Below, piece by piece: positions 38,501 to 61,743 of a DNA stretch of 64,000 bases. The notes under the pieces were generated by a model. It was given only the letters and a program-made list of their open reading frames with translations, did no database searches and was not told the DNA's origin. The stretch covers positions 1 through 64,000 of the forward strand of contig NZ_JAIVFQ010000023.1 in assembly GCF_020829495.1 (NCBI RefSeq), in the 5' to 3' direction. Each line of letters opens with the position of its first letter. Position 1 is the stretch's first letter. The DNA comes from Nostoc favosum CHAB5714 (lineage in GTDB: Bacteria; Cyanobacteriota; Cyanobacteriia; Cyanobacteriales; Nostocaceae). The position numbers and the translations under genes are program-made.

Positions 38501-38632
38501 CAACCCCAATGGATGAAGTTGATGAAGTTGGAAGATTTGCGGGCGCTTTCGCCTTTAATTTGGGGTCACGTTAATCCCTATGGTACTTTTCGTTTGGATC
38601 TTAATGTCAGGTTGCCAATTGAGACGGGGTAA
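35588..38632 (+). CDS. tnpA: Tn3-family transposase TnpA
   Basis: Protein of 1014 residues, the usual length. An N-terminal DNA-binding region (DUF4158-like, [20 protein letters not shown]) is followed by the DDE core: Asp near residue 716 ([13 protein letters not shown]), Asp near 787 ([15 protein letters not shown]) and Glu near 919 ([20 protein letters not shown]). It binds the 47-bp ends and carries out replicative transposition. The frame is undamaged, so this enzyme could also mobilise the miniature and solitary ends nearby. Confidence 0.95.
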
Positions 38633-43643: not shown

Positions 43644-44249
43644 CTAAAAAAGAAAATGTGCGTTTACTCTGTCGATATAACCCAACTCCTCCAGCTTATT
43701 TAAAACCTTATTTGCGCTTTGTACAATGCTTTCTCGTTCAGTTGTACATTCGACTTCAGGGTGAAGTGGTACTTCGTAAGGGTCATCAATACCAGTGAAG
43801 CACTTGATTTCCCCTGTTCTGGCTTTTTTATATAACCCTTTGACGTCTCGCCGTTCGCAAACTTCTAATGGTGCATTGACATACACTTCGATAAAATTTC
43901 CAATAAGCTGCCGCATTTGTTGGCGAATATGGCGGTACGGTGAGATAACTGAAACTAAAACGATCACATCATTTTTGGTAAGAAGGTGAGCTACAAAGCC
44001 AATACGCCGAATATTTTCTTCCCTATCCTCTTTGCTAAAACCTAGTTGATTGCAGAGGTTCTGACGCATTACGTCACCGTCTAGGACTTCAACTTTATAT
44101 CCCTGTGCTTGTAGTTTTTCTTCTACAAATTGACAGATAGTGGTTTTGCCTGCTCCACTGAAACCAGTTAACCATATTGTTACACCCCGTTGTTGTTGCC
44201 TCATTTTACATCCACTATTTAGTACTCTTTTTCTACCACTCTTTATCAA
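43644..44249 (-). CDS. cysC: adenylylsulfate (APS) kinase
   Basis: Protein of 201 residues. P-loop GFSGAGKTT at residues 29-37, then the APS-kinase blocks VLDGDVMRQNLCNQLGFSKE, SVISPYRHIRQQM, FIEVYVNAPLEVCERRDVKG and FTGIDDPYEVP. It phosphorylates APS to PAPS. The start is TTG, sharing TTGA with the stop of the sulfotransferase gene; ATG at 44204 is an alternative that still keeps the P-loop. Last gene of the cluster, so its job here is to supply PAPS to the sulfotransferase. A SxtO-like kinase has the same role in saxitoxin clusters. Confidence 0.93.
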   Translation of the reverse strand: MIKSGRKRVLNSGCKMRQQQRGVTIWLTGFSGAGKTTICQFVEEKLQAQGYKVEVLDGDVMRQNLCNQLGFSKEDREENIRRIGFVAHLLTKNDVIVLVSVISPYRHIRQQMRQLIGNFIEVYVNAPLEVCERRDVKGLYKKARTGEIKCFTGIDDPYEVPLHPEVECTTERESIVQSANKVLNKLEELGYIDRVNAHFLF

Positions 44250-45370
44250 GATGACTTAGGAGGGCTGTATTGCCATTTATCAATAGTAAATTTCCACGCA
44301 TCATATACCTTTGTTATTGTCTCTTCATCAAATAAGTACTTATTTGTTTCATAGTTAGAATGAGCATCAATATATTTTTGAAAATTTTCTTCGGCTTTTT
44401 CAAAATTCGGTAAATTGAGGTGTTCATATATTTTCTGAAGTTGTGCCAGTTCATGACCGACAAAATCCTCATACTTAATTTCTATTAAGTTTTCTTCGGG
44501 AATGAGGCTTTGATCAGCAAAAAACTTGTGCATTAACTGTTGATAAAATTTTAAGATATTTTCATCCAATTCTTGTTCACTGATTTCCTGTAATGCAAAT
44601 GCTGGTAAAATATTTTGAGATAAATGCTTTGTTGAGGCATAGACTATATATGGATTTCTATAAATATGAATAAATTTTGCTGTAGGAAACACTTCCAAGA
44701 GGAGTTGAACTCTTGCTGTATTAGGAGGATTTTTGAGAACGAGTCTTTTGCTATCCATGTGTAAAGTTGCTTTCTTTAAAACATTTATATAATAATTCTT
44801 CCATTGCAACTTTCTTTCTTCAGAAACTTGGTGAAACAAAACAACATCTTGGAAATATTTACTTATGTTTTTTGAAAAGACTGCACCATGAATAAAAGAA
44901 TAAGGAGAAATATTTCCTACTGCATACTCTTCCTCTTCAGGAAGAATATTAGAAGATTCTACATTATCCATTAATCTGGTTTTAGGACGAAAATTGTTTG
45001 AAATAAAATTCAATAGTTTTTGATGAGCTAAAAACATCTCTGGAGCATAGGCTTGACCTGTTGATACATATCCTAAATTTGGGTCTTGACTTATCAAATG
45101 GTGAAGATAAGTAGTACCACTTCTCCAATGCCCAAGTATAAAAATTGGTGAATGTTCAATTTCTAATTTTTCAAAATTTTTGTTATACTTAACTCTTTCT
45201 ATTATTCTCAAAGGAATTCCTAAGCAGCTTATTAGCGATATATAAAGCGCTTTAGGTATATATTTTTTATCAACACCACCGTTATAAATAAGCAACTTTA
45301 ACCAGTTGGTAAAGGATCCCATAGCGAGTGGATGAGAAGTTAACAATCCTATTTCTTGTTTCAAATTCAT
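44246..45370 (-). CDS. PAPS-dependent sulfotransferase
   Basis: Protein of 374 residues of the Sulfotransfer_3 type. The PAPS 5'-phosphosulfate loop is GHWRSGTTYL (80-89) and the 3'-phosphate site is IYRNPYIVYAS (236-246, Arg238 and Ser246). The acidic EEEEYAVGNIS stretch near residue 145-155 is common in this bacterial group. It should transfer sulfate to a hydroxyl, probably one introduced by the P450 or Rieske enzyme of the same operon. It overlaps cysC by 4 bases and lies 81 bases after the lipocalin-like gene. Cytoplasmic; no signal peptide. Confidence 0.92.
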   Translation of the reverse strand: MNLKQEIGLLTSHPLAMGSFTNWLKLLIYNGGVDKKYIPKALYISLISCLGIPLRIIERVKYNKNFEKLEIEHSPIFILGHWRSGTTYLHHLISQDPNLGYVSTGQAYAPEMFLAHQKLLNFISNNFRPKTRLMDNVESSNILPEEEEYAVGNISPYSFIHGAVFSKNISKYFQDVVLFHQVSEERKLQWKNYYINVLKKATLHMDSKRLVLKNPPNTARVQLLLEVFPTAKFIHIYRNPYIVYASTKHLSQNILPAFALQEISEQELDENILKFYQQLMHKFFADQSLIPEENLIEIKYEDFVGHELAQLQKIYEHLNLPNFEKAEENFQKYIDAHSNYETNKYLFDEETITKVYDAWKFTIDKWQYSPPKSS

Positions 45371-45451
45371 CTGTGTCTTAACCTGTTGTAAAGGTGCATT
45401 AGTAGATGTACAGTAGCACTTTTATTGAATGCTGGAAAACCGAACTTAATA

Positions 45452-45877
45452 TTAAACGTGTTCCCAAATTAGATGAGCAGTTTGCTGCTGACCATTCACC
45501 AAAATTGGCGTTGTGCTCAATGACAATTTTTCGGCTGTAAATTCAAAGAAACGGTCTTGGTCTACAGCAATCCAATTGGGAAACAAGCTAGCTTCAATGT
45601 GATGAATAACTTTGTTTCCTTGGATTTCATATTTACCACAATAGGAGATATAAGTTTTAGCAGCAGTAGCTCTCTCTTCTATGTTCCCGGACATAATATC
45701 AGAAGCAGCAAACTTAGGGCGATTAGCAGACATGATCACTACAGACATATATCCGTCTGGTAAGTACATGAGATACCCAACCGTATCTGGTCCATATGGA
45801 TAGGAAAGCTGACCATCAGCACCCCTGAGTTCATAAGATACCAATCGCCAAGTTCCAACAAATTGGTTCTGTATCAT
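45452..45877 (-). CDS. lipocalin-like domain protein
   Basis: Protein of 141 residues that is one Lipocalin_5-type beta barrel: FVGTWRLVSYELRGADGQLS, YGPDTVGYLMYLPDGYMSVV, RPKFAASDIMSGNIEERATA, and the end LSTTPILVNGQQQTAHLIWE. A strong ribosome site AAGGAGA precedes the ATG. Such proteins occur in several fungal and bacterial biosynthetic clusters, where they bind or shape a hydrophobic intermediate. Here it sits between SDR and sulfotransferase genes and may hold the polyketide during tailoring. Catalysis cannot be judged. Confidence 0.85.
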   Translation of the reverse strand: MIQNQFVGTWRLVSYELRGADGQLSYPYGPDTVGYLMYLPDGYMSVVIMSANRPKFAASDIMSGNIEERATAAKTYISYCGKYEIQGNKVIHHIEASLFPNWIAVDQDRFFEFTAEKLSLSTTPILVNGQQQTAHLIWEHV

Positions 45878-45913
45878 TGTTTCTCCTTGGTTTACAAACA
45901 GAGAATGTCAAAG

Positions 45914-46672
45914 TTACTGAGCTGTAAAACCTCCATCAATGAGCAGAGGGTGACCAGTGATAAAGCTTGCCCCATCTGAACATAGCCAGATTACGGCATT
46001 AGCCACTTCTTCTGGTTGACCAAAACGTCCAATAGGATGTTTTGCTAGCATGTGTGCGTGGAATTCCTCAGTACTATAAGCACGTTTAGCCATTGGTGTT
46101 TCGATCGCACCTGAACAGACAGCGTTAATCCTGATACCAGTTTGAGCTTGTTCTAAGGCAACAGCTTTTGTCAATCCAATTACACCATGTTTGCTAGCAC
46201 AGTAAATAGAACCGTACATGATGCCGATCACTCCCCCGACAGAAGCATTGTTAACGATCGCTCCCCCACCCTGCTTAAGCATTGGAAGAATTTCATACTT
46301 CATCGACAGCCAGATTCCTTTAAGATTAGTATCGATGATGTTATTCCAATTATCTTCACTTTGCTCTATGCTCGGACCGATTATTCCCTCAACTCCAGCG
46401 TTATTGAAGGCATAATCTAAACGACCATAAGCTTTAACTGTTTTATTGATTAAGTTTTCAACATCAGCCGCCTGAGTCACGTCAGTTTTAACAAAGATAG
46501 CTTCACTACCAGCATCCTTGATAAGTTGAACCGTTTGTTCACCTTCTTCAACTCGACGACTGCCAATAACTACATATGCTCCCTTGCGAGCAAAAGCCAA
46601 AGCAGTCGCTTGACCAATGCCAGAATTGCCACCTGTCACTAGCGCAACTTTATTTTCAAATTCTTTCATCAT
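45914..46672 (-). CDS. SDR-family oxidoreductase
   Basis: Protein of 252 residues, classical SDR: TGGNSGIG (13-20) for NAD(P), NNAG (90-93), Ser144 (NNASVGG), Tyr157 and Lys161 (YCASK). The end VIWLCSDGASFITGHPLLID is that of the FabG/glucose-dehydrogenase-like group. It probably oxidises an alcohol or reduces a ketone of the product after P450 action. It lies 80 bases after the P450 gene and 36 bases before the lipocalin-like gene in the same operon. Confidence 0.92.
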   Translation of the reverse strand: MMKEFENKVALVTGGNSGIGQATALAFARKGAYVVIGSRRVEEGEQTVQLIKDAGSEAIFVKTDVTQAADVENLINKTVKAYGRLDYAFNNAGVEGIIGPSIEQSEDNWNNIIDTNLKGIWLSMKYEILPMLKQGGGAIVNNASVGGVIGIMYGSIYCASKHGVIGLTKAVALEQAQTGIRINAVCSGAIETPMAKRAYSTEEFHAHMLAKHPIGRFGQPEEVANAVIWLCSDGASFITGHPLLIDGGFTAQ

Positions 46673-46752
46673 AAAATTCTCATGATTAAATTTTGAGTAA
46701 ATTGCCTACACAAACAGTTAATGCTCTATCTACTGCTTGGTTGCTCTTAGGG

Positions 46753-48102
46753 CTAGCGTTGCCCCACTACCGCCATTTTTACACCACCAGCAGGCACTAT
46801 AAAAGATATTTGACGTCGTGGTTGCACAGGTTGTTTATCAAGTAGCGTTAGTTGATAGCGCGACAGAATAGTTGCTAATACAAGCTTCATTTCAAATAGG
46901 CTTAATGCTGCGCCGATACAGCGACGACTGCCCCCTCCAAAAGGCAAATACTCATAGATCGAAAATTGTTTTTCTAGGAAACGTTCTGGTCTAAACTGCT
47001 TGGGATTTGGATATAAATCTTCACGGTGATGAGTTTGGTAGATATCAATAACCACTTTTGTACCAGGTTTTAACTCATAGTCCATTAGTCTGGCAGGCTT
47101 TATTACTAAGTGTGGAAGATTTAGCGGCGCAATTGGATAAATTCGTAGAGTTTCTTGACTAATAGCAGTGAGATAAGGAAGTTGAGAAATGGAAAGTAGA
47201 TTTGGAGAGTTACCCAGAGAATCAAGTTCTTTTAGCAGTTTATTATAAACGTTTGGCATATGGTGAATCCAGTATAAAGCCCAAGCCAGTGACCCTGAGG
47301 TTGTTTCATATCCAGCAATTAATAGTGTTAATAAAGTATCGTGCAACTCTTTATCTGTCATCCCCTCACCTTTTTCATCTCGACCAGATAGCAACAATGT
47401 CAAAATGTCATTATGTTCAGAATCAACTTGTTTTCGTCGTTCTTGAATTTCACTATACAGAACTTCATCAAGTTGTTTCTTTAGGCGAATAAAACGTCCC
47501 CACGGACTCCAAGAGCCTAAATCTTTTTGAAGGAAAGAAAAAAATAATAAAGTAGCATGAACTGGAGAAACTAAATAATTTAACCATGAAATTAGTAGCT
47601 TTTTTAGAAGCTGATAACGCTCTCCTTTGTACAAACCAAATACAACTTCTAAAATAACCTGTAAACTGATATCTTTCATGAGTTCATGTACTGAGAAAGG
47701 TTTCCCAGGTTCTAACTGACTCATAATTTTTTCAGTAATATTGCAGATTGCTATTCCATACTTTTTTATTTGTTCTCCATGAAAGTAAGGCATCAATAAT
47801 TGGCGCTGACGTTTGTGGTTAACACCCTCTAAAACTGATATTGAGTGTTCTCCTAGTATCGGCTTGCTAAATTTTTTGAATGATTCTGTTAAAGGGTAAA
47901 ACTGTTTTGATTCACTGGTAAAAATCTGTTCAATTGCTTTTGGATTGCTGACAAACACATGGGGACTATAATCCCAACCGACTTTTCCGAGAAAAATATC
48001 ACCATAGCTTTGACTAGCAGCTTCTGTGTAACCTAAAGGGTCAAAAATCCACTGAAGCATCTGTATAGGACCTGGAGTTTTCGGACCATCAAGTAATATC
48101 AT
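46753..48102 (-). CDS. cytochrome P450 (CYP110-like)
   Basis: Protein of 449 residues. I-helix AGYETTS (263-269), ExxR ETLR (317-320) and heme loop FGGGSRRCIGA (388-398) with Cys395 as heme ligand. The overall pattern (FDPLGYTEAASQSYGDIFLG at the start, FRPERFLEKQFSIYEYLPFG near the end) is that of the cyanobacterial CYP110 family, whose members act on fatty acids and terpenes. A strong ribosome site AAGGAGAT precedes ATG. It follows the polyketide synthase by 160 bases, and the likely role is hydroxylation of the released acid. Confidence 0.94.
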   Translation of the reverse strand: MILLDGPKTPGPIQMLQWIFDPLGYTEAASQSYGDIFLGKVGWDYSPHVFVSNPKAIEQIFTSESKQFYPLTESFKKFSKPILGEHSISVLEGVNHKRQRQLLMPYFHGEQIKKYGIAICNITEKIMSQLEPGKPFSVHELMKDISLQVILEVVFGLYKGERYQLLKKLLISWLNYLVSPVHATLLFFSFLQKDLGSWSPWGRFIRLKKQLDEVLYSEIQERRKQVDSEHNDILTLLLSGRDEKGEGMTDKELHDTLLTLLIAGYETTSGSLAWALYWIHHMPNVYNKLLKELDSLGNSPNLLSISQLPYLTAISQETLRIYPIAPLNLPHLVIKPARLMDYELKPGTKVVIDIYQTHHREDLYPNPKQFRPERFLEKQFSIYEYLPFGGGSRRCIGAALSLFEMKLVLATILSRYQLTLLDKQPVQPRRQISFIVPAGGVKMAVVGQR

Positions 48103-48262
48103 TTATTTATCTCCTTTTCAAGCATTAAGTAAGGATTTAGGTGATTGGTTAAGACAGCCAAGATTGGATGTACTAGTAGTTGAGCATCGAGTTGGAGGCT
48201 GAGGTTGAGACGCTCAACCTCTGACAGATGTTCTTGATCTGCTACGATTTTTGCTACTTTAG

Positions 48263-51200
48263 TTATTTTCTCAGAATTGACATCAGTTCTTGAGATATCG
48301 CTTGCAAAAGCTGTTTTTGATCGCTGTGCAGGAAGAGATGATTGCCATTTAACATGTGTAGCTTAAAGGCGCTGCGAGTTTGCTCGCGCCAAGCCTCAAG
48401 AAGGTTTTGGTTCACTAGTTTATCCTGGAGACCTCCAAATACGGAAATGGGACAATCCAGTGGCTCATCTTGAGAGTAAGTATAAGTCTTATGGAGTTGG
48501 TTTCCTGTCTTTAGAACTGGTAGCAACGATCTCATGAACTCACCATCTTTTAAAAACGAAGTCCATGTATCTGTTGTATAACCTAAAGTCTCTAAAAACG
48601 TAGGATCAGAAAGCTTATCCAAAGAGATATGAGTCAGGGATGGGAATGGATCTGGAAGTTGCGGAGCATGAAAAGCGCCAACAAACAAGTGATACGGAAC
48701 TATATCATATTCTTGGCGCAGTAGGCGGGCTAGTTCAAAGCTGATCAATGCACCCAGACTATGACCATAGAATGCGATTGGTTTGTCCAAATAAGGAAGT
48801 AGAACTTGTGCCAAGTTTTGTGTGAGTGAAGCCAGTTGATGAAATGGCTGTTCGTTGGGACGGTTCACTTGCCCAGGTATCTGAATAGCACAGACTTCTA
48901 TATCTGACGGCAACTCATCTAACCAGGAACGAAATACAGAGGAGTTTCCCCCATTGTACGGGAAGCAGAATAGACGCAGTTGGGCATCCGGATTTGGTGT
49001 ATGACAAACGATCCATTCGGTTGCCGATCGCTTAACAGAGGAGCGTGATAGTGTTTTGGAAGTGGAGTTGCCTGAAGGCACTTGCTGAACTTGCTCTTGA
49101 GCCAATTGGGCAATACTTGTACCCCCAAGGAGTTTCATGGTGGGTACGTCTACACCTAGCTCTTTCTTAAGCCGATTACTCAGCTCGACTGCCATTAATG
49201 AATCAAGTCCCAAATTCGTCAAGGGCTGTTTAATGTCTAGCTTGGCGATAGAAGTTCCTAGTATTTTAGCTACTTCTTCACTGACGCGCAATTCTAACAT
49301 TTGCTGGCGCTCTGCCGAAGAGGCAGCTAACAGACCTTTTTCGAGGGAATCTCTTTCGGTATTGTCGGCATTTGCTTTTCGTAAAACTGCTTTTTCGCTA
49401 ATCAGACGAGAAAATCGCCCTGATGCCGCAGAGGAATGAATCTCACCCCACTGCTCCCAGTTCATCGGTGCTACCACCATCTGGACGACCTGTTGTTGAA
49501 GTAATTGTGCCAGTATCTTTAGTGCTTGCTGAGATTGCAAGGGTTTAGTTCCAATCCGCTCCATATATCGATTGACATCGGTACGTTCAGCAACATAACC
49601 AACATCAGCCACTCTACCCCAGTTGACTGTTAAGGCTGGCAAACCCTGAGTGTGGCGGTAATGCGCTAGTGCATCAAGAAAAGCATTGGCAGCTGCATAA
49701 TTCCCCTGTCTTGAACTTCCAATAATAGAAGTCACCGAGGAAAAAAGGATGAAGAAATCTAAAGGTGTGTTTAAAGTGTGGATATGTAGATTCCAGGCTC
49801 CAATGCTCTTGGGTGCGATCGCCTTATGTAAGCGCTCTCGGTTCAGTTCAACCAAAGCAGCATCATCTAGAACCATTGCAGCGTGAATAATGCCTCGTAA
49901 CGGCGGCATAGACTGCTGAATGTCAGCAAGAACGCCCTGGACTTGCTCTTGTTGTGTTACGTCTGCCAAGGCAATCATCACACGAACACCTGCTTGCTCC
50001 AAAGTTTTTACCGCTTCCTTGGCTTGTGGTGAGGAGGCACCCGTGCGACTCATCAGTACCAAGTGTCGGGCACCCTGCTCCACCAGCCACTGAGCCACTG
50101 CTATACCAAATCCACCCAGTCCGCCTGTTATCAAGTAGCTGACATCGGCAGCAAATGTGACTGTTTGTTCAGATGAAGGAGCCACTGCTACATCTGCATC
50201 TTGCAGCGACACGACAATTTTGCCAATGTGTTTAGCTTGCACCATGTGGCGGAAGGCATTTGCCACCCGTGAGATGGAGAAGACTCGGTGAGGAAGCGGG
50301 TGAAGGATTTTCGCGTTAACCTGTTGCATGACTTCACGCAGTAACGAGGTAGCAAAATCAGGGCGTTCTCGCAATAACCGATCCAGATCCACAGCAAAGA
50401 ACGACAAATTATTCCCAAAAGGTCGTAGTCCTACTTTACTGTTTGCGTAAATATCTCGTTTGCCGATTTCTATGAAACGTCCATAAGCTCCCAAGACAGA
50501 GATGCTCTTAGGAATGGCATCTCCTGCTAGAGAGTTGAGAACGATGTCTACGCCTTTACCACCTGTGCGTTCCATCACTTCATCAGCAAATGCTAGAGAT
50601 CGGGAGTCCATTATGTGCTTCACACCAAGCGCTTCTAAAAATTCCCGTTTTTCCGGGCTGCCAACTGTGGCGAAAATTTCTGCGCCAACAGCTTGAGCCA
50701 GTTGAATGGCAGCAAGACCTACACCACCCGCAGCACCATGAATGAGAACCCGCTCACCCTGACGGAGGCGTCCCAAGTAGTGTATCGCATAGTAGGCAGT
50801 CAAAAAAGTCGTGGGAATTGTAGCAGCTGACTCAAAACTCAGATGTTCCGGCTTATGCACTACAAGACGGGCATCTGTCATTGTATGTGTACTAAAGCTA
50901 TAAGAAGCACAAGCAATGACTTCATCCCCGATATTAAATCCTTTTACACTAGAGCCAATGGCAGTAATAATTCCACTACACTCTATACCAAGCGATCGCC
51001 CTGAGTAACCCCCCTCTAAAGCTTCGTCTGAGAGCATACCCATTGCTGCCATGACATCCTTGAAGTTTAGCCCGGCGGCACAAACCTGAATCTCAACTTC
51101 TGCATCTGCAGGTTGTTGACGTGAGATCGCCCGCAGTATCAAATTGTCCAACACTCCAGGTGTAGAAATTTCTAAGCGGAAGGGTTGTTGATTTTGGACA

Positions 51201-54200
51201 AGGGATTTTGAATTTTGGCGCAAAGAAGCTGGCGACATCGGTATCAACCGATGTACATAACGAAACTCGTCCCGCAACGCAATTTCATCTTCTTGCTCAT
51301 CTGCTAACAACTCGAATAGGAGAGACTGAATCTCCTCTTCTGTAGTGGCTGGACTCAAATCCACCCTAGTACAGCGAAGATTGGGGTGTTCGTTATTGAT
51401 CGTACGACCCAAACCCCACAAAGGAGATTGTGCAACCGAGACAGATTTTAAACCTCCTACTGTTTGGGTTCCACGAGTGACTAGCACCAAACGGGGAGAG
51501 CTAGACCAATTGGCTTTAGTCAGAGCCTGTATTAAGTGCACAACACTAACACAATTGCGTGTCTGCGCTGACTCTAGGGAAGTAGTTGTCATCTCCTCAG
51601 GATCTGGCGTGTCCAGACTCCAGAGGTGAACCACACCGCCATCAGCTAGCTGGTTTGCATCAACAGTCTCAACAAGTCGCTGCAAATCTTCTGAGTTTTC
51701 CGGGCAAAGCTGGAAGTCATTTGTATCAAGGCGCTGGTAAACTTCTCCAGGCGAAATCAGCACCGGGATTTGTTGCAGTTCTCTAAGTTTTTGTGCTAGC
51801 TGTTGTCCGACTCCATCACTGTCGGCAAAAATCAGCCAACTTCCTTGCTTTTCAGGCTTGGTCGGTGCAACTGATTTGAGTTGTTCCTTTTGTTCGTGAC
51901 GTATTTTTGTCTTGCCTTCACCATTAACTTTAAAAGGTTGGCTGTGTTTAGAATCAGTAGCCAGAATAACAGTATGTAAAGGCTGATCTGTTGCTTCTCT
52001 ATCTGAAAGACCAGCAACTTCAGTAAACCCAACATCTTCTAGTACATCTCGCCATTTTGCTTCCGAAATACATGGGTGCGATCTGCGTAATTCCACATCA
52101 GTAAATAGCCACCAACCTTTGAGCAATCCAGATACCAGTTCAGCCCAGCGTGGAGGGTTTGTTAACTCCAGCAAAACCAATAATCCCCGTGAGTTCAGAA
52201 GCTGTTTAACATTCTCAAGTGAAGAGTGCAAATTAGCAGTGGCGTGCAGTACATCTGATGCCAGAATGAGATCAAAAGAATGCGGCTCAAATCCTTGTGC
52301 TATAATATCTGCTTCAATATCTAAAGTTCGGTATTCAACGAAAGAATAATCGCGAAACTTCTGCTTTGCAGAGATCATAAACTGTTGGGAAACGTCAGTA
52401 AATACATACTCCGTCCACTGTTGCGGTAGCTTTGGCAGCACATAAGATGTCATCGCGCCCGTACCTGCGCCAATTTCCAAAATCCGCACTGTTCGTCCTT
52501 GTGGTAAAGACTCTAGCGCCTTAACAACGACTTTTTGAGCCAGCAAGTTATATATGCGATAGGTAGGAGAGTCTTGATATAGATGCTCAGTTGTTGTTTG
52601 AGAGCCTTCAGGAAAAAGGAGTTGCAGTGGGTCAACCTCTCCTTGTAACACGTGTGCTAATTTCTGACCGCACCGTCCCAACAGTGTTAGTTCCGCTTGA
52701 TAGGCAGGAAATTGAGCTAAAAGCTTTTTCCAAGTCTCAATAGGGTCGTTTAGTTCCAGTATGTGGCAGACCTCCCATTGGTCATCTAAAAGAAGACGCA
52801 GCACGCCCTCCTCCTGAAGAATTTCCAGCATCTGACCTAAAAGCCGCTTATGCTGGGATATTACGCCTAATTCCTGTGCCAAAGAATTCACGCTGACGCG
52901 CTGGTTTAATTGAAGTTGCCAACCGAGTTGACTTAAGGCTTTGAGAATATAAACAGCAGACAAAACGTCAATTTGTGGTTTTAGCTCTTCGTAGTAATGC
53001 TTCCGTCCTAATTGCATACTTAACCGAGTTGCTTCGGATTGAAGGTCAAGAGCAATTTGTACTGGCGAGGGTAGATAATCAGCTGCGGGGCGAATTAACT
53101 CTTGACCTGAGCGTGCTTTCAACTTCCACTGGTATTCATAGAGGTAATCCTCTTTATCTAGACCTCCCTGCTTGTCCTCCAGAAACTGGCAAGAAAATCC
53201 CCGAATTTCTCCCAGCACGTTTCCGGCTTCATCCAGTAGTTTAATGTCTCCTTTAATATGGGTGGCGCTTTGCTCTACCAGGGTGGCATGACTCCAAAAT
53301 TGGATTCCGGGACGACCGTAAACCCGAACTCGGTCTATCTGCACTGGCAAGTAAGTCCCCTTAACAGATAAAGTGGCGAGCAGAGCCTGAAAACAAGCAT
53401 CAAGGATAGCCGGATGCAATTGATATTCTTTGACTTCTGTCTCTATAGCATTGGGAACTCTAATTTTAGCTAGTGCTTCACCTTTACCGCTCCAAAGCCG
53501 CTCGATTCCTTGGAAGCAAGAACCATATTTAAAGCCTATTTCTTGGAAACGTTGGTATAAATTGCTCTGAGAAATTTCTTTAGTGCAGCGGCTATGAATT
53601 TCATCCAGCACAACTATATCCGGGACAAAGTTGTTGGGCTGTTGGGTGAGCTTGCCTGTCGTATGTCGAACCCACTCCTGGGTATCTTTGGCATTACTGT
53701 AAATTTCAAAAGTTGCTTGACTTGAATCTAAAATACACTGAAGGGTTGGTATATCACTTTCAGGTAAGAAGAGTGCTTTGTGAAATTCAATCTCTTCCAC
53801 AATGTAAGCTTTTTCCCCAAAAGTTTCTGATGCAATAGCCAAAGCCATTTCCACATAAGCTGCTCCAGGATAAACCGCAGCCCCTTGGACGATATGATCA
53901 TAGAGATAAGCGAGTTTCTGCCGAGCGAACGACTGATTCCAAGTCGGCTGGGGCGATCGCAAACGGTATCCCAAAAGAGGATGTACCTGTTGCTTTGATC
54001 TTGCTTGTTGGAAATGTTGTTCCAGCTTCTCTGGTTGCGAGTCAAAAATCTCATACCAATAGCGTTCTCGCTGCCAAGGATAAGTTGGCAACATCACCCG
54101 ACGTGGCGCATAGTCCTGCCAAAAACCAGACCAGTCTATGGCTACTCCACGGACGTATAATTCTGCTAAACTCTCCAGAATTTGTTGCCAATCCGAATAT

Positions 54201-57200
54201 CCTGGACGCAAGCTGGGAAGTAAAGCTCCCGCGGCTTGTGGTAGGCAAGAACGACCCATCCGCAATAAAATTGGTTTTGGTCCAATCTCCAAAAAGACTT
54301 CATAACCCGCACGATGAAGAGTTTCCATACTAGCAGCAAATTTTACAGGCTGCCCTATGTGATAACACCAATATTCAGGAGTGGTGATTTCATTTGTGAT
54401 TAGCTCTCCAGTGACGTTGGAAACTAAATTGATTTGTGGAGGTGAGAAGGTGATATCGGCGATAACCTGCCGAAAATCATCCAGCATAGGTTCCATTAAA
54501 GGAGAGTGGAAGGCATGGGAAACCTGCAATGGAGTCGTCTTTACCCCGCTTGCTTCTAAAGTACTCACAACATTACGTATTGCCCTACAGCGTCCAGAAA
54601 TGACAATATTTTCTGGTCCGTTAATTGCAGCGATGGAAACTTCTTTTGCGAATGGTGCGATCGCTGTTGCAACCCGTTCCTCATCCGCCAAGATAGCTAC
54701 CATTTCTCCATCAGAAGGCAATGTCTGCATTAAACGCCCTCGTTGAGCTATCAGCTTTAGACCATCTTCTAAGCTGAATACTCCTGCAACAGTTGCAGCA
54801 ACATATTCCCCGACACTATGACCCATAACAATGTCAGGAGTTACACCCCAAGACTTCCATAACTCAGCCAAGGCATATTCTATGGCAAATAAAGCAGGTT
54901 GAGTGTAGGCTGTGGAGTCCAAGGGAGAATTTTCTCCCGTTGCTGGATACAAAACTTTTAGAAGGGGTATTTCTAAATATGAACTCAGAATTTCTTCGCA
55001 GCGCTCCAATGCTTGACGAAATATGGGTTGTGTCTGGTAAAGTTGCTGTGCCATACCCACATACTGTGACCCTTGACCTGTGAATAAGAACGCTATCTTG
55101 GGAATATTGTCGATAATACGACCACTCACCAGTCCGCTAGTCTCCCACTCGCTACTGAAAGCACTCAACTGCTCGCGCAACTGTGCAGTAGATTCAGTAA
55201 TAATTGCCAGTCGGTGTTCAAAATGCGCTCTTCCCGTGGAGGCTGTGAAACAAATATCTGCTAGTGATGTCCCAGCATGGCGATTCAAATAAGTTTCATA
55301 TTTTTGTGCCAGTTCCTGCAAACCTTTCTCACTTTTTGCAGAAAGGGTTAATACGTTCTTGGGAGGAACAATCTCTGCCTTCCTTTGCACGGGTGTTGGT
55401 GCTTCTTCCAAGATGACATGAGCATTAGTACCGCTGATCCCAAATGAATTGACTCCTGCTAGACGCTGCTTTGATAACTTGCTCGTTTTCCATTCCATAC
55501 CTTCAGTGGGAATCACTGCGGGAGTACGCTCAAGTTTTATGTTCGGATTTAAATTCTGAAAATGAAGATGCTTGGGAATGTACTTGTGTTGCATCGACAA
55601 GACAACTTTAATCAGTCCAGCGATTCCAGAAGCAGCTTCCGCGTGTCCGATATTTGTCTTAACTGAGGCGATCGCTAAAGGATTTTCTGCTCCTCGGTCT
55701 TGCCCGTAAGCTGCTTCTAATCCATTGATCTCAACAGGATCACCCAAGGAAGTCGCTGTACCATGAGCTTCGACGTAGGAAACTTGATTGGGATGTACAC
55801 CAGCTACAGATAAAGCTTTACGGATTACAGCAGTCTGAGCTGATGGGTTTGGTGCTGTTAAACCGTTACTGGCACCATCTTGATTAACTGCTGTCCCTCG
55901 CACGAGAGCCAAGATATTATCTTTGTCAGTTATTGCTTGCGACAGACGCTTAAGAACTACAACACCACAACCTTCGCCGCGAACATACCCGTTAGCAGAA
56001 GCGTCAAAGGTTTTGCAGCGTCCATCTGGTGAAAGCATTCCTGCCTGAGAAAAACTAATGCTTGACTCAGTAGATAATAAAAGATTTACCCCTGAGGCAA
56101 GAGCAATATGACATTCTTTATTCTGCAAGCTTTGACAAGCAAGATGTAAGGCAACAAGTGATGATGAACATGCGGTATCTACAGAAATTGCCGGACCTGT
56201 GAAACCGAAAAAGTACGACACTCGTCCTGATGCTACCGAAGCACTGGTTCCGGTGGCAAAGTAGGCATTACAGTTTTTGTCCCCCTCCTCTTGTCTGACC
56301 TGTGCATAGCCGTAATCATGGTTACAGATAGCAACGAAAACACCTGTCTGGCTTCCTGCTAAAGCTTCAGGGTTTAATCCGGCATTTTCTAACGCCTCCC
56401 AACTCACCTCCATTAAAATGCGTTGCTGCGGGTCCATATTATTAGCTTCTCTAGGAGCAATCCTGAAAAACTGGGCATCAAATTGATCAACCTGAGACAG
56501 GAAACCTCCATGTTGACTAAATATCTTTCCAGCTTGGTTTCCATCGGGATCGTAATAATGTTCAATGTCCCAACGCTCTTTAGGAACTTCGGTGATAGCA
56601 TCAGTACCTTCGCACAACAGCGACCAAAACTCTTCGGTACTATTCACACCACTTGGTAAGCGGCATCCCATGCCAATAATTGCGATAATTTCCTGGGTAT
56701 TGTTTTCAGTTGGGAATGAAGAGAAATCAGAAGACCTTGTTTCTAATATAGAAGAAGTTATTATTTCTGAGGTTCTATTGAGCTGTTGCTGAATTTTTTC
56801 CTGGTGAATAGCAGGTTGCTCTAAACTTTCTTGTTCTTTATGAGCCTGAACATCAGATTGTTGTATTGTTTGAAGATTTTCTTCTTTAAGCAACCCTTGT
56901 TCCTGAAGATAAGTGCTTATAGCTGACGGCGTAGGATATTGAAAGAAGAAAGTGGGAGGTAGTTCCACCCTAAAGCGCTGACCAAGTTGCGAGCTGAGTT
57001 CCAGAAGATCCAGTGAATCTAAACCCATATCCTTCAAAGAACGTTTGGCAGAAAAAGAAGCCATGCGCTTCTGACCCATGACTAAACAGATTGTTTCTTC
57101 AACAATTGAAGCTGAGGTTTGATTCTGATTGATTTGATTTTTCTTCTCTGATATCTCAATCTCTTCCGAAATTCTATGTTGAGAGATTGGACGGTGGTGA

Positions 57201-59317
57201 ATTTTATATTCGATTAAAACGCCTTTTCCTTGATTATCTGTGTCTTCTGGGCGATAGTTAGTCAGTACACCTGTGATCGTGGCACCATGACTTTCATGAA
57301 AGCGCAGAATTGGATCTAAAAGTTGTCCTTGGTCGTTACGTTTTTGAATATATTCTTCAAAGCTTCCATCGGAGTGATTGACATAGTTTTTGCACCGAGT
57401 CACACCCACAACACTCTCAATACCACCTTTTAAAGAACACCATTGAAGCATAAACTCCAGCAATTGGTCACCCAATCCCTGCTGCTGCATTTCCGGTAAG
57501 ATATTTATACCAAGAAGTTGGACTATTGTCCCTTGCTTTGTATATAAGGATGGTAGATTTTTCCAAGTCGTGTTTTTCAATAAATCAGTACTGGAAATTT
57601 TTTGAGAATAAACTACACCAACAATGCGATCGCCTATTTCTAAAACACAATGAGCATCTGGTAATTCTTCAATTCTTCGCCGGATTTCCTGTGGAGATGC
57701 CTGTAAATGTTCTGACCAACATTCTACTTCTAAGTTGTTTAAAGCCAGCAGGTCTTCTAAATTTGAGTGACGAATTGTATAAGCTCGTTTTTCAAACCAA
57801 TTTAATGTAATGCGACTAAAAGGAAATGTTCTTGGATATCTTTTAGAAAATTCAACTTTCGGGAATAAACCAGCTTCGGCAGCAGCTAAAAGGAAAACAT
57901 CAGCCTCTATAAGATGCTGCATAGAAAATGCATGATAGGCATCAAAGTGTAGGTTCTCGCTTTTGTCTAAAAATTTGTAGGTGACTTCTGGAGATAAACA
58001 GTGTACTTCCAAAACAATTAATCCATGTTTTGTCATAACTGATGCCCACCTTTCTAAGTGTTCTACCAGACTTTGTACCATCACATGAGGAGGAATAGAA
58101 CCGCCATTCCTATCAACATAAACCCCCTGATAAGGTATCACAGAACGCGTAGATAATCTGGCAGTATCCAAAGAAGGAATAAAAGGGCGGTCATGGTCGA
58201 GAAATGAGCGGATGTGAAGCATATTTTCTGGATCATGGATACCCAAATTTATTAAATCTGCTATAAGTTTTTCCGGATTCCCAATATCTCCTTGAAGAAC
58301 AAAGTGGGGAATATTACTTAGAGTATGATTAGTAACCTCCAATGCTTCCTGATTATAATCCACACCAATCATCTGCACGGGATACTGCTCTAACACAGTC
58401 CCTCTTGCAGATTTATATTGAATAGTCTCATATACTCTTTTTAAGAGACTGCCATCTCCACAGCCCATATCAACAACATATTTTGGCTGTTCTTCATAAG
58501 GCAACTGATTAAAAAGAGAAAGAATTAGTTCATCTACATCAGAGAAAAACTTTTCATGTTGAAACCCACTGGCTACAACATTTAGAGTGCGATTAATATG
58601 TCTTTCGTTACTTGACGTATCTCTAGAAAATACAACCTGAGTGTCACCAAACAACAAATCAGATATACGAGATAACATCGGTTTGTAGGAAGCAACTGTT
58701 CCGGTAATCAAACACCGTTCTACTATAAAACGACCCACATCAGTCAAGAAGATTTGACCATCTTTTAAAGATGCCCACCCTTTGCTAATAAATAGTTCGT
58801 ATAATTCCTCACGCACCGAATGACTTAATTTTGAAAATAAAGGTTTTTGTCTATCCTCCAGATCATTAAGCAAATTATTCTTTTTAAGTGCAAGTAAGAC
58901 AGGTATAACTAAAATTCCATCTAAAAAGTCTGCTATAATTGGGTTCTCAACATTCCATCTTTGCCGGGAGAGGGCAATCCACTTTCCCAGACAACTTTTC
59001 TGTTGTTCTCCCATCAAGTATGCTTCTATTTCCAAGTGATATAAGTCGAGAATCTCTTCTGGAAGTTTTTGAGAGATTTTGGCCTTGTCGGTTAGAGAAT
59101 ACTCTCCGTTCTCCTGTTGCACAACCCAATTTAAAGATTGCATAATTTTCACGGCAACCTGAAGGTGTCCTTCATTTGCCCCCAGCCGCTTTGCTATTTT
59201 CTCCAACGTTAGTGAGTTTTGCTCTTGTAACAGATCAAAGAAACCTTTTTTTCGACAAGCTATAATTGTCGGAATAAGCACAAATCCGTGAGCGTAACGA
59301 TTAATTATCTCTAACAT
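48263..59317 (-). CDS. modular PKS: MT-GNAT-ACP / KS-AT-DH-cMT-psiKR-ER-KR-ACP-TE
   Basis: Protein of 3684 residues. Loading unit: methyltransferase (1-510; SAM loop VVDMGCGDG 281-289; HIRSFLDHDRP 368-378, a block typical of AprA/SxtA-type MTs), GNAT (about 515-705; QQQGLG 611-616) and ACP (Ser768). Extension module: KS (875-1305; Cys1050, His1185, His1225), AT (1408-1730; Ser1501, HAFH 1601-1604, thus malonyl), DH (1779-2045; His1808, Asp1973), C-methyltransferase (2250-2450; EIGAGTG 2281-2287), non-catalytic KR part (2490-2690), ER (2715-3040; HGAAGGVG), KR (3060-3290; TGGLGGFG, Ser3194, Tyr3207, LDD 3150-3152, B-type), ACP (Ser3373) and TE (3445-3684; Ser3520, His3660). All domains look active. 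Expected product: a short, fully reduced, alpha-methyl acid, unless the module iterates. Ribosome site AAAGGAAAG. Confidence 0.96.
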   Translation of the reverse strand: MLEIINRYAHGFVLIPTIIACRKKGFFDLLQEQNSLTLEKIAKRLGANEGHLQVAVKIMQSLNWVVQQENGEYSLTDKAKISQKLPEEILDLYHLEIEAYLMGEQQKSCLGKWIALSRQRWNVENPIIADFLDGILVIPVLLALKKNNLLNDLEDRQKPLFSKLSHSVREELYELFISKGWASLKDGQIFLTDVGRFIVERCLITGTVASYKPMLSRISDLLFGDTQVVFSRDTSSNERHINRTLNVVASGFQHEKFFSDVDELILSLFNQLPYEEQPKYVVDMGCGDGSLLKRVYETIQYKSARGTVLEQYPVQMIGVDYNQEALEVTNHTLSNIPHFVLQGDIGNPEKLIADLINLGIHDPENMLHIRSFLDHDRPFIPSLDTARLSTRSVIPYQGVYVDRNGGSIPPHVMVQSLVEHLERWASVMTKHGLIVLEVHCLSPEVTYKFLDKSENLHFDAYHAFSMQHLIEADVFLLAAAEAGLFPKVEFSKRYPRTFPFSRITLNWFEKRAYTIRHSNLEDLLALNNLEVECWSEHLQASPQEIRRRIEELPDAHCVLEIGDRIVGVVYSQKISSTDLLKNTTWKNLPSLYTKQGTIVQLLGINILPEMQQQGLGDQLLEFMLQWCSLKGGIESVVGVTRCKNYVNHSDGSFEEYIQKRNDQGQLLDPILRFHESHGATITGVLTNYRPEDTDNQGKGVLIEYKIHHRPISQHRISEEIEISEKKNQINQNQTSASIVEETICLVMGQKRMASFSAKRSLKDMGLDSLDLLELSSQLGQRFRVELPPTFFFQYPTPSAISTYLQEQGLLKEENLQTIQQSDVQAHKEQESLEQPAIHQEKIQQQLNRTSEIITSSILETRSSDFSSFPTENNTQEIIAIIGMGCRLPSGVNSTEEFWSLLCEGTDAITEVPKERWDIEHYYDPDGNQAGKIFSQHGGFLSQVDQFDAQFFRIAPREANNMDPQQRILMEVSWEALENAGLNPEALAGSQTGVFVAICNHDYGYAQVRQEEGDKNCNAYFATGTSASVASGRVSYFFGFTGPAISVDTACSSSLVALHLACQSLQNKECHIALASGVNLLLSTESSISFSQAGMLSPDGRCKTFDASANGYVRGEGCGVVVLKRLSQAITDKDNILALVRGTAVNQDGASNGLTAPNPSAQTAVIRKALSVAGVHPNQVSYVEAHGTATSLGDPVEINGLEAAYGQDRGAENPLAIASVKTNIGHAEAASGIAGLIKVVLSMQHKYIPKHLHFQNLNPNIKLERTPAVIPTEGMEWKTSKLSKQRLAGVNSFGISGTNAHVILEEAPTPVQRKAEIVPPKNVLTLSAKSEKGLQELAQKYETYLNRHAGTSLADICFTASTGRAHFEHRLAIITESTAQLREQLSAFSSEWETSGLVSGRIIDNIPKIAFLFTGQGSQYVGMAQQLYQTQPIFRQALERCEEILSSYLEIPLLKVLYPATGENSPLDSTAYTQPALFAIEYALAELWKSWGVTPDIVMGHSVGEYVAATVAGVFSLEDGLKLIAQRGRLMQTLPSDGEMVAILADEERVATAIAPFAKEVSIAAINGPENIVISGRCRAIRNVVSTLEASGVKTTPLQVSHAFHSPLMEPMLDDFRQVIADITFSPPQINLVSNVTGELITNEITTPEYWCYHIGQPVKFAASMETLHRAGYEVFLEIGPKPILLRMGRSCLPQAAGALLPSLRPGYSDWQQILESLAELYVRGVAIDWSGFWQDYAPRRVMLPTYPWQRERYWYEIFDSQPEKLEQHFQQARSKQQVHPLLGYRLRSPQPTWNQSFARQKLAYLYDHIVQGAAVYPGAAYVEMALAIASETFGEKAYIVEEIEFHKALFLPESDIPTLQCILDSSQATFEIYSNAKDTQEWVRHTTGKLTQQPNNFVPDIVVLDEIHSRCTKEISQSNLYQRFQEIGFKYGSCFQGIERLWSGKGEALAKIRVPNAIETEVKEYQLHPAILDACFQALLATLSVKGTYLPVQIDRVRVYGRPGIQFWSHATLVEQSATHIKGDIKLLDEAGNVLGEIRGFSCQFLEDKQGGLDKEDYLYEYQWKLKARSGQELIRPAADYLPSPVQIALDLQSEATRLSMQLGRKHYYEELKPQIDVLSAVYILKALSQLGWQLQLNQRVSVNSLAQELGVISQHKRLLGQMLEILQEEGVLRLLLDDQWEVCHILELNDPIETWKKLLAQFPAYQAELTLLGRCGQKLAHVLQGEVDPLQLLFPEGSQTTTEHLYQDSPTYRIYNLLAQKVVVKALESLPQGRTVRILEIGAGTGAMTSYVLPKLPQQWTEYVFTDVSQQFMISAKQKFRDYSFVEYRTLDIEADIIAQGFEPHSFDLILASDVLHATANLHSSLENVKQLLNSRGLLVLLELTNPPRWAELVSGLLKGWWLFTDVELRRSHPCISEAKWRDVLEDVGFTEVAGLSDREATDQPLHTVILATDSKHSQPFKVNGEGKTKIRHEQKEQLKSVAPTKPEKQGSWLIFADSDGVGQQLAQKLRELQQIPVLISPGEVYQRLDTNDFQLCPENSEDLQRLVETVDANQLADGGVVHLWSLDTPDPEEMTTTSLESAQTRNCVSVVHLIQALTKANWSSSPRLVLVTRGTQTVGGLKSVSVAQSPLWGLGRTINNEHPNLRCTRVDLSPATTEEEIQSLLFELLADEQEDEIALRDEFRYVHRLIPMSPASLRQNSKSLVQNQQPFRLEISTPGVLDNLILRAISRQQPADAEVEIQVCAAGLNFKDVMAAMGMLSDEALEGGYSGRSLGIECSGIITAIGSSVKGFNIGDEVIACASYSFSTHTMTDARLVVHKPEHLSFESAATIPTTFLTAYYAIHYLGRLRQGERVLIHGAAGGVGLAAIQLAQAVGAEIFATVGSPEKREFLEALGVKHIMDSRSLAFADEVMERTGGKGVDIVLNSLAGDAIPKSISVLGAYGRFIEIGKRDIYANSKVGLRPFGNNLSFFAVDLDRLLRERPDFATSLLREVMQQVNAKILHPLPHRVFSISRVANAFRHMVQAKHIGKIVVSLQDADVAVAPSSEQTVTFAADVSYLITGGLGGFGIAVAQWLVEQGARHLVLMSRTGASSPQAKEAVKTLEQAGVRVMIALADVTQQEQVQGVLADIQQSMPPLRGIIHAAMVLDDAALVELNRERLHKAIAPKSIGAWNLHIHTLNTPLDFFILFSSVTSIIGSSRQGNYAAANAFLDALAHYRHTQGLPALTVNWGRVADVGYVAERTDVNRYMERIGTKPLQSQQALKILAQLLQQQVVQMVVAPMNWEQWGEIHSSAASGRFSRLISEKAVLRKANADNTERDSLEKGLLAASSAERQQMLELRVSEEVAKILGTSIAKLDIKQPLTNLGLDSLMAVELSNRLKKELGVDVPTMKLLGGTSIAQLAQEQVQQVPSGNSTSKTLSRSSVKRSATEWIVCHTPNPDAQLRLFCFPYNGGNSSVFRSWLDELPSDIEVCAIQIPGQVNRPNEQPFHQLASLTQNLAQVLLPYLDKPIAFYGHSLGALISFELARLLRQEYDIVPYHLFVGAFHAPQLPDPFPSLTHISLDKLSDPTFLETLGYTTDTWTSFLKDGEFMRSLLPVLKTGNQLHKTYTYSQDEPLDCPISVFGGLQDKLVNQNLLEAWREQTRSAFKLHMLNGNHLFLHSDQKQLLQAISQELMSILRK

Positions 59318-59521
59318 GATTGCAACTTTCCTTTTACTCCTAGATTATTTCTTCTAAATCACGCTAGAAAATTTCGCGTTGCATATTGGCGGGATGAATT
59401 GATATTTTTGACCAAGGCTCAAGGTAGATTCTTCGCGCCTTTGCATGAGGCAAAATTCAAGAACTCAATCAGCAACGCCAAAAATTTTTATTGCCTGGAT
59501 AAGTTGTGCATCAGCCATTGC

Positions 59522-60544
59522 TCACGCTGCTGTTCGCCGTTGCTCAATTTCGCCGTGGCTCGCCAGCAGTGCTGCCAGCTTGTGCCGCATCAGTATGCCC
59601 GGTTTATCGGTCGCCATGTGTATCTCCTCGTTCAAATCGAGAGGCACATCGTAATCTATTGTTTCCAAGATTGCGCGATCTTCGCTGAATATCAAACCCT
59701 CATGAGTGATTATATCTGCTGCTTTGGCCTCAGCTTCGGTGTCGTTGCGGAACAAAAAGCGTACCATTTGGCAACTGGAATCGTTGATGGGCGTTGCATA
59801 CGTTATGCTCACCTGTACTAATTCTTTACCGTCCATCATTTCTTGCAAATGCAAACCAAAGGGCATGCACCAGTTAATTTTACGTATTATCTTCATGGTT
59901 TTCTGTGAACTCCCCACATTCTTTTCCATATGGGGATTGTTGTGCATAAAGAGAATTGACTCGAAGTAGAAGCCGCGCTCCGTCTTTTCAAGTACGTTAT
60001 GGGGAGAGGAAACTGGATTTTCGCGATCAGCTAAGGTTTGGTTGTGGACGAAGTGAAAGTGTCCATGATCGCATACGTTTTCTATTAACCGCAGACCACT
60101 ACAGTGCCATGTTTCGTAAAAGGCGTGGATCAGGCGGTAGCTTGGGTCTTTTGCCTCCGGAATGTTGAGAATTTCATCAAGACCGTCCCCAAGGCAAACC
60201 CAAGCGTAGCCGTAGCGCTCCTGGCATTGAAAACTTTGGACGCGATAATTCTCAGGAATCGGGCTGTCAGGAGCCTGAGGCACTACGACACAGCAGCCTT
60301 TGGAGTTAAACTGCCAACCGTGGTAGGGACAGCGAATGTTCCCATCAACAACAATACCCTGTGACAAAGGTGTGTAACGATGACAGCAGCGATCGCGGAC
60401 AACAGATGGCTTGCCGTCTGCATCAAGCCAGAGGACGAGGGGTTCGCCTAGGAGCGTGAATGATTGCGGTCTTCCCTGTAGCAATTCGATGGGAATGACT
60501 GGATACCAGAAGCGCCGGAGTACTGGTTGAGCTGTTGCAAGCAT
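59522..60544 (-). CDS. Rieske non-heme iron oxygenase
   Basis: Protein of 340 residues. The Rieske [2Fe-2S] site is Cys53-x-His55 with Cys72-x2-His75 (RCPYHGW). The mononuclear iron motif NxxDxxHxxxxH is exact (Asn156, Asp159, His162, His167). The stretch FQCQERYGYAWVCLGDGLDE matches the SxtT/SxtH-like group of tailoring oxygenases. It needs an external reductase, and none is encoded here. It is the first gene of the cluster, 204 bases before the PKS on the same strand, and probably hydroxylates or desaturates the product. An 8-7-8 inverted repeat lies 68 bases upstream of the start. Confidence 0.93.
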   Translation of the reverse strand: MLATAQPVLRRFWYPVIPIELLQGRPQSFTLLGEPLVLWLDADGKPSVVRDRCCHRYTPLSQGIVVDGNIRCPYHGWQFNSKGCCVVVPQAPDSPIPENYRVQSFQCQERYGYAWVCLGDGLDEILNIPEAKDPSYRLIHAFYETWHCSGLRLIENVCDHGHFHFVHNQTLADRENPVSSPHNVLEKTERGFYFESILFMHNNPHMEKNVGSSQKTMKIIRKINWCMPFGLHLQEMMDGKELVQVSITYATPINDSSCQMVRFLFRNDTEAEAKAADIITHEGLIFSEDRAILETIDYDVPLDLNEEIHMATDKPGILMRHKLAALLASHGEIEQRRTAA

Positions 60545-61695: not shown

Positions 61696-61743
61696 TAGAC
61701 AGAAACTCCCGAAGGTACATATCCTAACGTTCGTCTGGATCAA

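Follow-up and report, generated by a model that had tools for sequence, protein, structure and literature searches.

A seven-gene locus around one large polyketide synthase

The window analysed here, a stretch of 64,000 nucleotides (bases 1-64000 of a 93397-base contig) from the 8.5 Mb, 241-contig draft genome of Nostoc favosum CHAB5714, carries a row of seven minus-strand genes that includes a type I polyketide synthase (PKS) of 3684 residues, whose front and back halves show the affinities of two different PKS lineages. In the order of transcription, the row encodes a Rieske oxygenase with Rieske and VanA_C domains and the motifs CxH...CxxH and N-x2-D-x2-H-x4-H (59522..60544), the hybrid PKS (48263..59317), a cytochrome P450 of 449 residues (46753..48102), a short-chain dehydrogenase/reductase (SDR) above the cut-off of NF004818 (45914..46672), a Lipocalin_5 protein of 141 residues (45452..45877), a Sulfotransfer_3 sulfotransferase of 374 residues (44246..45370), and an adenosine 5'-phosphosulfate (APS) kinase (43644..44249 for the open reading frame as called). 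All seven proteins exceed the curated Pfam cut-offs, which bears out an earlier note on this DNA that had described seven minus-strand genes. Its claim that the tailoring enzymes are intact also stands: catalytic motifs are present in each protein searched, the lipocalin having none to search, and the Ser/Tyr/Asn pattern of the PKS ketoreductase, missed by a regular expression, is visible in the alignment.

The gaps between the open reading frames are, in order, 204, 160, 80, 36, 81, and -4 bases. The 204-base maximum given in the earlier note is correct, whereas its 4-base overlap holds only if the APS kinase starts at a TTG. Because the main family matches to this protein begin only at residues 12-21 of the called frame, the in-frame ATG at codon 16 (position 44204) is the more likely start, and the overlap then gives way to a 41-base gap to the sulfotransferase. 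In the 30 bases upstream of the genes, the P450 and lipocalin genes have a clear purine-rich ribosome site and the PKS gene a moderate one, so that "mostly good" was generous as an overall description. A sequence scan found no minus-strand terminator-like or promoter-like site in the gaps, which is weak evidence: promoter-like sites numbered 35 against 38.7 in shuffled sequence (standard deviation 6.7), and terminator-like sites were in only moderate excess (23 against 15.0, standard deviation 4.0). By their spacing, the seven genes may form one transcription unit.

Domain organization of the PKS

The PKS has the domain order AprA_N, winged helix, methyltransferase (MT), GNAT, acyl carrier protein (ACP), ketosynthase (KS), acyltransferase (AT), dehydratase (DH), C-methyltransferase (cMT), enoylreductase (ER), ketoreductase (KR), ACP, and thioesterase (TE), all encoded on the minus strand. 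Its loading part (residues 1-710; 57188..59317) contains a malonyl MT of the metal-dependent type and a GNAT, followed by a loading ACP (residues ~735-830, with GLDSL at 765; 56828..57115). Residues 1-707 align with the solved didomain 7uci/7ucl over its full length (E ~1e-295); these structures are deposited under "Polyketide synthase-related protein", and we take them to be the SxtA MT-GNAT. The next-best solved matches of the loading part are AprA MT1 (6b39) and the CurA GNAT (2ree), and the window GNAT keeps the Thr and His found in CurA and 7uci, presumably the functional residues. The front of the protein thus has every part of a GNAT-type loading module: AprA_N, winged helix, MT, GNAT with both residues, and ACP. 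Behind it lie the KS (residues 876-1300; 55418..56692), the AT (1400-1725; 54143..55120), the DH (1776-2060; 53138..53992), the cMT (2085-2450; 51968..53065), the ER (2690-3040; 50198..51250), the KR with LDD and Ser/Tyr/Asn motifs (3045-3290; 49448..50185), and, together at 48266..49315, the second ACP (3335-3410) and the TE (3440-3684), for which RifR is the closest solved structure. The earlier note was right about the gene set of the cluster; it had missed the metal-type MT and GNAT as a starter supply, the two lineages of the PKS, the lipid-type setting of the sulfotransferase relatives, and the possible extension of the cluster past the window.

Two parents within one protein

Comparisons were made with 388 genomes of the class, with 99 to 148 relatives, and through one scan of the genome_contigs collection with six peptide patterns, only some of the matches being opened. 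With the ACP-TE end of the PKS as query, 134 of the 148 relatives match at E <= 0.001, and in five genomes of the same genus (G025, G039, G011, G043, and G026) stand-alone PKSs match it at 55-58% over nearly the whole query. These stand-alone enzymes are KS-AT-DH-cMT-ER-KR-ACP-TE frames of 2823-2874 residues, about the size of the window PKS minus its loading part. In its KS, the window PKS is 63-68% identical to four cyanobacterial GNAT-loaded PKSs, 57-63% to two others, and 53-55% to the stand-alones; in its AT, the corresponding values are 58-63%, 46-49%, and 36-37%. Over the first 160 residues of the KS block, the two groups are not told apart (48-57 versus 41-61%). Past the junction, the stand-alones are 64-68% identical in the DH, 65-70% in the cMT, 75-78% in the ER, 66-70% in the KR, 61-64% in the ACP, and 54-58% in the TE, and those GNAT-loaded PKSs that have the domain reach 18-33% in the DH, 36-47% in the cMT, 43-48% in the ER, and 22-47% in the KR. 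A further GNAT-loaded PKS that was kept out of the trees (L201) agrees, with 62% in its first-module KS, 59% in the AT, 42% in the cMT, and 32% in the DH; another, L202, is the same sequence as L106, which was already in use.

For the trees, every segment in the window and in 25 of the fetched loci was taken that a phmmer search (E 1e-10) matched over 75% of the query or more. In the KS-AT tree (27 rows), the window belongs to a set of eight rows (support 96/96) in which the other seven are GNAT-loaded first modules, namely the six named beforehand and L096, whose MT-GNAT piece precedes its KS. This is the place of a first module in a GNAT-loaded PKS; a tree that unites the window and the stand-alones is rejected (p 1.4e-7), and the latter group with the KS-AT of a gene set that lies beyond the window (98/95), on long branches. 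For the processing domains, the window joins the stand-alones in the DH tree (15 rows; 99/99.9), the cMT tree (17 rows; 100/100), and the ER tree (11 rows; 100/99.9), while grouping with the GNAT-loaded rows is rejected in each (four rows, p 1e-38, with a warning that two long GNAT rows meet; five rows, p 2e-5; and two rows, p 8e-44, respectively), as it is in the KR tree (20 rows; four GNAT rows, p 1.5e-4). By trees and identities alike, the processing domains come from a lineage other than that of the GNAT loading. Taken as a sequence, the protein is therefore a two-parent mosaic, with a front of MT-GNAT-ACP-KS-AT that has the affinity of GNAT-loaded PKSs and a back of DH-cMT-ER-KR-ACP-TE that has the affinity of the stand-alone enzymes.

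The switch between the two can be placed closely. A cumulative affinity curve along the protein peaks at residue 1745, with a near-peak zone of 1731-1775 when all references are used and of 1726-1776 with any one stand-alone. Single GNAT-loaded references give peaks at 1723-1764; with five of these six, the zone falls within 1727-1776, and the most distant, RI285, alone gives 1689-1749. The curve has an excursion of 125.2, whereas 2000 column shuffles averaged 10.3 and never went above 30.1. Within the junction zone (residues 1726-1776; 53990..54142), the motif LPTYPWQRERYW (residues 1743-1754; 54056..54091) coincides with the switch, as expected of a hybrid joined at LPTYPFx5W. The simplest account would be a single crossover at or beside this LPTYPx6W linker; one crossover suffices because loading part and KS-AT sit side by side in the front half. 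As to direction, we infer that a front was swapped onto a stand-alone back. The AT signature is HAFH, which we take to be malonyl-type, in the window PKS and VPYH in the stand-alones, so that the exchange would have altered starter and extender selection and kept processing and release.

A predicted sulfated, branched acid

The MT signature DAYH is common to the window PKS, AprA MT1, and seven of twelve other rows, among them L102 and L103, the latter from Moorena bouillonii PNG; the signature is DAFQ in the SxtA-type row and DACQ in three others, and the remaining row is interrupted and non-comparable at this point. The shared DAYH hints at an isobutyryl starter, and the starter is probably either propionyl or isobutyryl. 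The MT would methylate malonyl-ACP once or twice, and decarboxylation would then leave propionyl- or isobutyryl-ACP. The KS-AT would add one malonyl unit, the cMT, KR, DH, and ER would turn it into an alpha-methyl saturated chain, and the TE would release 2-methylpentanoic or 2,4-dimethylpentanoic acid, further rounds being possible. The capacity for a short branched acid that the earlier note had ascribed to the PKS is in principle there in its domains. Because such a chain would leave the PKS fully reduced, an oxygenase is needed to provide a hydroxyl, and this would account for the presence of oxygenases alongside the sulfotransferase: the P450, the Rieske enzyme, or both may install the hydroxyl, the SDR may adjust it, and the sulfotransferase may sulfate it with 3'-phosphoadenosine 5'-phosphosulfate (PAPS) made by the APS kinase of the cluster. 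In CurM, a sulfotransferase-TE pair forms an olefin. That outcome is unlikely here, the sulfotransferase being a separate protein and the intact ER removing the beta-hydroxyl.

An oxygenated, sulfated short branched acid is thus a plausible product. The small acid may also be joined to a larger lipid or ester by fatty acyl-AMP ligase (FAAL), PKS, and PapA genes 8 kb beyond the window PKS cluster. Our preferred reading, which we hold to be somewhat better than evenly supported, is an orphan cluster around a natural hybrid PKS that would make such an acid, possibly as part of a lipid. We would give roughly even chances to the further-reaching proposal that this is a functional natural hybrid of the cis-AT type that feeds the P450, Rieske, and SDR enzymes and the sulfation step, and that the outcome would be a sulfated short branched polyketide, or its lipid ester, of a new class.

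The sulfotransferase and its relatives

The sulfotransferase has both the 5'-phosphosulfate and the 3'-phosphate motifs of a PAPS-dependent enzyme, and the APS kinase has its P-loop and a full match to PF01583/TIGR00455. The locally encoded APS kinase of the earlier note is thus confirmed; it is additional to a second genomic copy, 78% identical. The sulfotransferase is matched in 21 of the 148 relatives, its own genome included, at E <= 0.001, and eight others reach E < 1e-50. In the stretches fetched around all eight, a Pfa-type synthase (KS-CLF, PfaD) lies near the sulfotransferase in G031, G027, and G104, and a FAAL in G022 and G096. An APS kinase is near it in G031, G027, and G022, directly adjacent in the first two, and further genes at the G031 locus encode an ABC exporter, a Rieske-type ring hydroxylase, and a PapA-like acyltransferase. 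In the stretches of G092, G097, and G105, whose neighbours are unannotated, only the sulfotransferase was found of the genes looked for, and the loading MT-GNAT, lipocalin, and P450 of the window were found in none of the eight.

Two of these loci deserve mention in their own right. G031 (L034, L035) and G027 (L038, L039) hold Pfa-type, PUFA-synthase-like clusters with a ring hydroxylase, a sulfotransferase-APS kinase pair, and an ABC exporter, together with the PapA-like acyltransferase in G031 and a carbamoyltransferase in G027; they are probably a second kind of sulfated-product cluster in the genus. The G027 sulfotransferase (L038:17863-18995) is split into two frames, and the APS kinase and neighbours remain.

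Further afield, a Gloeothece plasmid has a sulfotransferase relative (44%) beside two type I PKSs; in the plasmid collection there was no close relative, all 30 matching records being below 60%. In Bacteroides finegoldii, a protein 33% identical over 98% stands in a cysQ-permease-cysC-cysD-cysN-sulfotransferase row. BT_0416 sulfates cholesterol and adjoins putative sulfate-import and PAPS genes, BT_0411-BT_0415 (PMC9417993), and the B. finegoldii row is laid out like that locus, a likeness of gene layout. Because the relatives adjoin lipid-type synthases and because of this distant Bacteroides similarity, a lipid or alicyclic alcohol is favoured as the putative substrate. The enzyme would belong to a group of cyanobacterial sulfotransferases tied to acyl-chain assembly.

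Lipocalin, Rieske oxygenase, and neighbouring DNA

The lipocalin is matched in 44 of the 388 class genomes at E <= 0.001, and its top three relatives adjoin acyl or polyketide genes: in G392, FAAL and desaturase genes; in G305, a FAAL match nearby; and in G142, a TE, an acyl-CoA dehydrogenase, an AMP-ligase, and PKSs. A weaker relative, in G053, has a PKS and an HlyD/FtsX exporter nearby. The carrier role that the earlier note had suggested for the lipocalin is thereby a putative one. No solved relative was found up to E 1, and a single-sequence AlphaFold2 model (mean pLDDT 60) was too poor for fold comparison. Among the nearest solved relatives of the Rieske oxygenase are NdmA, SxtDIOX, and SxtT.

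On the plus strand beyond the window (contig 68579-78087), divergent from the cluster and 8 kb on, lies a set of genes for a KS-AT-ACP-C protein of 1527 residues, a FAAL-ACP of 715, a P450 of 422, and a PapA-like acyltransferase of 443, with transposase genes between it and the cluster. Between this PapA and the one in the G031 sulfotransferase-APS kinase cluster, identity is 55%. Because PapA relatives are common (113 of the 148 genomes at E <= 0.001), this linkage is a lead only, and the gene set may be a second wing of the cluster.

Other features flank the seven genes. A frame of 263 residues (60952-61743) lies upstream of the Rieske gene, likewise on the minus strand, and matches nothing in Pfam or NCBIfam at E 0.001. 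On the downstream side, past the APS kinase, is a gene for an RTX calcium-binding repeat protein (41161-42186, minus strand), which we did not count in the cluster, and further on a Tn3-family transposase (35588-38632, plus strand). The Tn3-family transposase and the transposases beyond the window suggest a mobile or plasmid-borne region.

Weighing the alternatives

Several observations weigh against the preferred reading. In the KS-AT tree, grouping of the window with only the six GNAT rows named beforehand is also rejected (p 0.018), which we attribute to the omission of L096 from that group. Support for the window with the stand-alones is weak in the KR tree (81/66), some other rows in the DH, cMT, ER, and KR trees drew long-branch warnings, and the ER tree has just two GNAT rows. 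The enzyme that gave rise to the back half has no loading module and may iterate. The P450 family is common among the relatives, and the Rieske family occurs in 380 of the 388 class genomes (E <= 0.001); with a family near-universal in cyanobacteria, it is position alone that places the Rieske oxygenase in the cluster.

If the hybrid PKS does iterate, it would make a longer methyl-branched fatty acid, which the FAAL, PKS, and PapA proteins encoded beyond the window would turn into a sulfated, esterified lipid, by analogy with SL-1, the mycobacterial sulfolipid. A match to the NCBIfam Pks2 model, below its cut-off, the Pfa-type synthases by three and FAALs by two of the eight strong sulfotransferase relatives, the cholesterol-sulfation-like row of the Bacteroides relative, and the PapA- and FAAL-like genes with the G031 resemblance all point this way. 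However, the KS falls among the KSs of first modules in GNAT-loaded PKSs, of which several are multimodular, and such KSs normally act once. Transposase genes also part the two gene sets, and PapA relatives are common. We regard this alternative as possible, and clearly less probable than a short acid.

It is rather doubtful that the seven genes are neighbours of separate pathways, with the Rieske oxygenase and perhaps the sulfotransferase-APS kinase pair serving other processes. The commonness of Rieske and P450 relatives would fit, as would the sulfotransferase being found, next to an APS kinase in two genomes, in clusters of other kinds. Yet the genes share a strand with gaps of 36-204 bases and no terminator-like site in them on that strand, and the three best relatives of the lipocalin lie beside acyl or polyketide genes.

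A misassembly at the conserved linker is very unlikely. The genome is a draft of many contigs, the junction is a conserved motif, and a parental half could sit in an assembly gap, but the missing halves are not seen: elsewhere in the genome, the best stand-alone-type KS-AT is 56% identical and the best matches to a GNAT-PKS back half 35-39%, and beyond the loading part, no block of 80 residues is more than 86% identical to the window protein in any examined reference. A saxitoxin-pathway relative or remnant, to which the MT-GNAT (61% to a 1234-residue, SxtA-sized protein of G479), the Rieske matches to SxtDIOX and SxtT, and a pairing of sulfotransferase and APS kinase, as in some sxt clusters, would be suited, is rejected on gene content as next to impossible, since KS-AT-DH-cMT-ER-KR-ACP-TE and not an aminotransferase-like condensing domain follows the ACP, the seven genes include no amidinotransferase, and the MT signature is DAYH and not DAFQ.

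Distribution and comparison with known systems

An MT-GNAT was found in 9 of the 388 class genomes and 21 of the 148 relatives, the own genome included and the two sets overlapping. At the loci of nine of these genomes (G479, G153, G374, G050, G253, G074, G022, G056, and G136), no MT-GNAT is joined to a stand-alone-type back half, and no other frame near 3684 residues exceeds 45% among the ACP-TE matches listed for the 148 relatives. Two loading modules have arrangements of their own: in G136 (L204:6166-10344), a frame of 1406 residues joins MT-GNAT-ACP straight to an AT and a TE, with no KS match inside, and in G056 (L203:15188-17644), MT-GNAT-ACP forms a frame of 842 residues, apparently a separate loading protein. 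In the eleven loci from genome_contigs, none of the tailoring genes had a counterpart at E <= 1e-4, and the sole match in the stand-alone PKS regions was a P450 at 24%. No other genome had the seven-gene set within the loci opened. In the literature searched, with MIBiG and most subscription papers outside its scope, no published description of the cluster or the hybrid was found, and the cluster predicts a type of sulfated product for which no described cluster was found there either.

LovF-type single-module PKSs make one short methyl-branched acid. The window PKS, with one fully reducing, C-methylating module, would do the same job; unlike the LovF type, which starts from acetyl and releases through a transferase, it has a built-in GNAT starter supply and a TE. 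It shares the MT/GNAT didomain, or parts of it, with AprA of apratoxin, CurA of curacin, GphF of gephyronic acid, and SxtA, and its KS-AT is in the same clade as the first modules of GNAT-loaded PKSs. However, most of the GNAT-loaded PKSs opened lead into further modules or are of SxtA size, whereas the window PKS is one module with its own TE and a back half from another lineage. With the stand-alone Nostoc PKSs it shares DH to TE, 54-78% identical by domain, but these enzymes are without MT-GNAT-ACP and have a different KS-AT, with VPYH in place of HAFH. The annotated neighbours of the stand-alones (in G011, G025, and G043) include TauD oxygenases, in G011 also HlyD and FtsX exporter parts, but not a sulfotransferase or APS kinase.

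Another cyanobacterial set of sulfotransferase and APS kinase is cyrJ/cyrN. Some sxt clusters hold sxtN, a sulfotransferase, and sxtO, an APS kinase (PMC2679770). A sulfotransferase with a local APS kinase is thus common to these and the window cluster, but the scaffold is unrelated, and five of the eight strong relatives of the window sulfotransferase are in Pfa-type or FAAL clusters.

Joints are a main obstacle in PKS engineering, and the window PKS, its active-site motifs intact, is a compact natural test, in one module and one protein, of whether KS-AT and DH-to-TE halves are exchangeable. In a 2024 Science paper, the LPTYPFx5W site was derived for trans-AT PKSs, the motif is said to occur also downstream of the AT in cis-AT PKSs, and natural recombination or hybrids are suggested to be rare in the latter (PMC11260071). 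The parts described here and natural PKS recombination as such are already known; the unusual feature is that, in a cis-AT PKS, both lineages are identified and the switch falls on the engineering motif. The window junction lies on the same motif as the engineered fusions of that work (PMC11260071), but the window PKS is natural and of the cis-AT type, and joins a KS-AT front to a DH-to-TE back.

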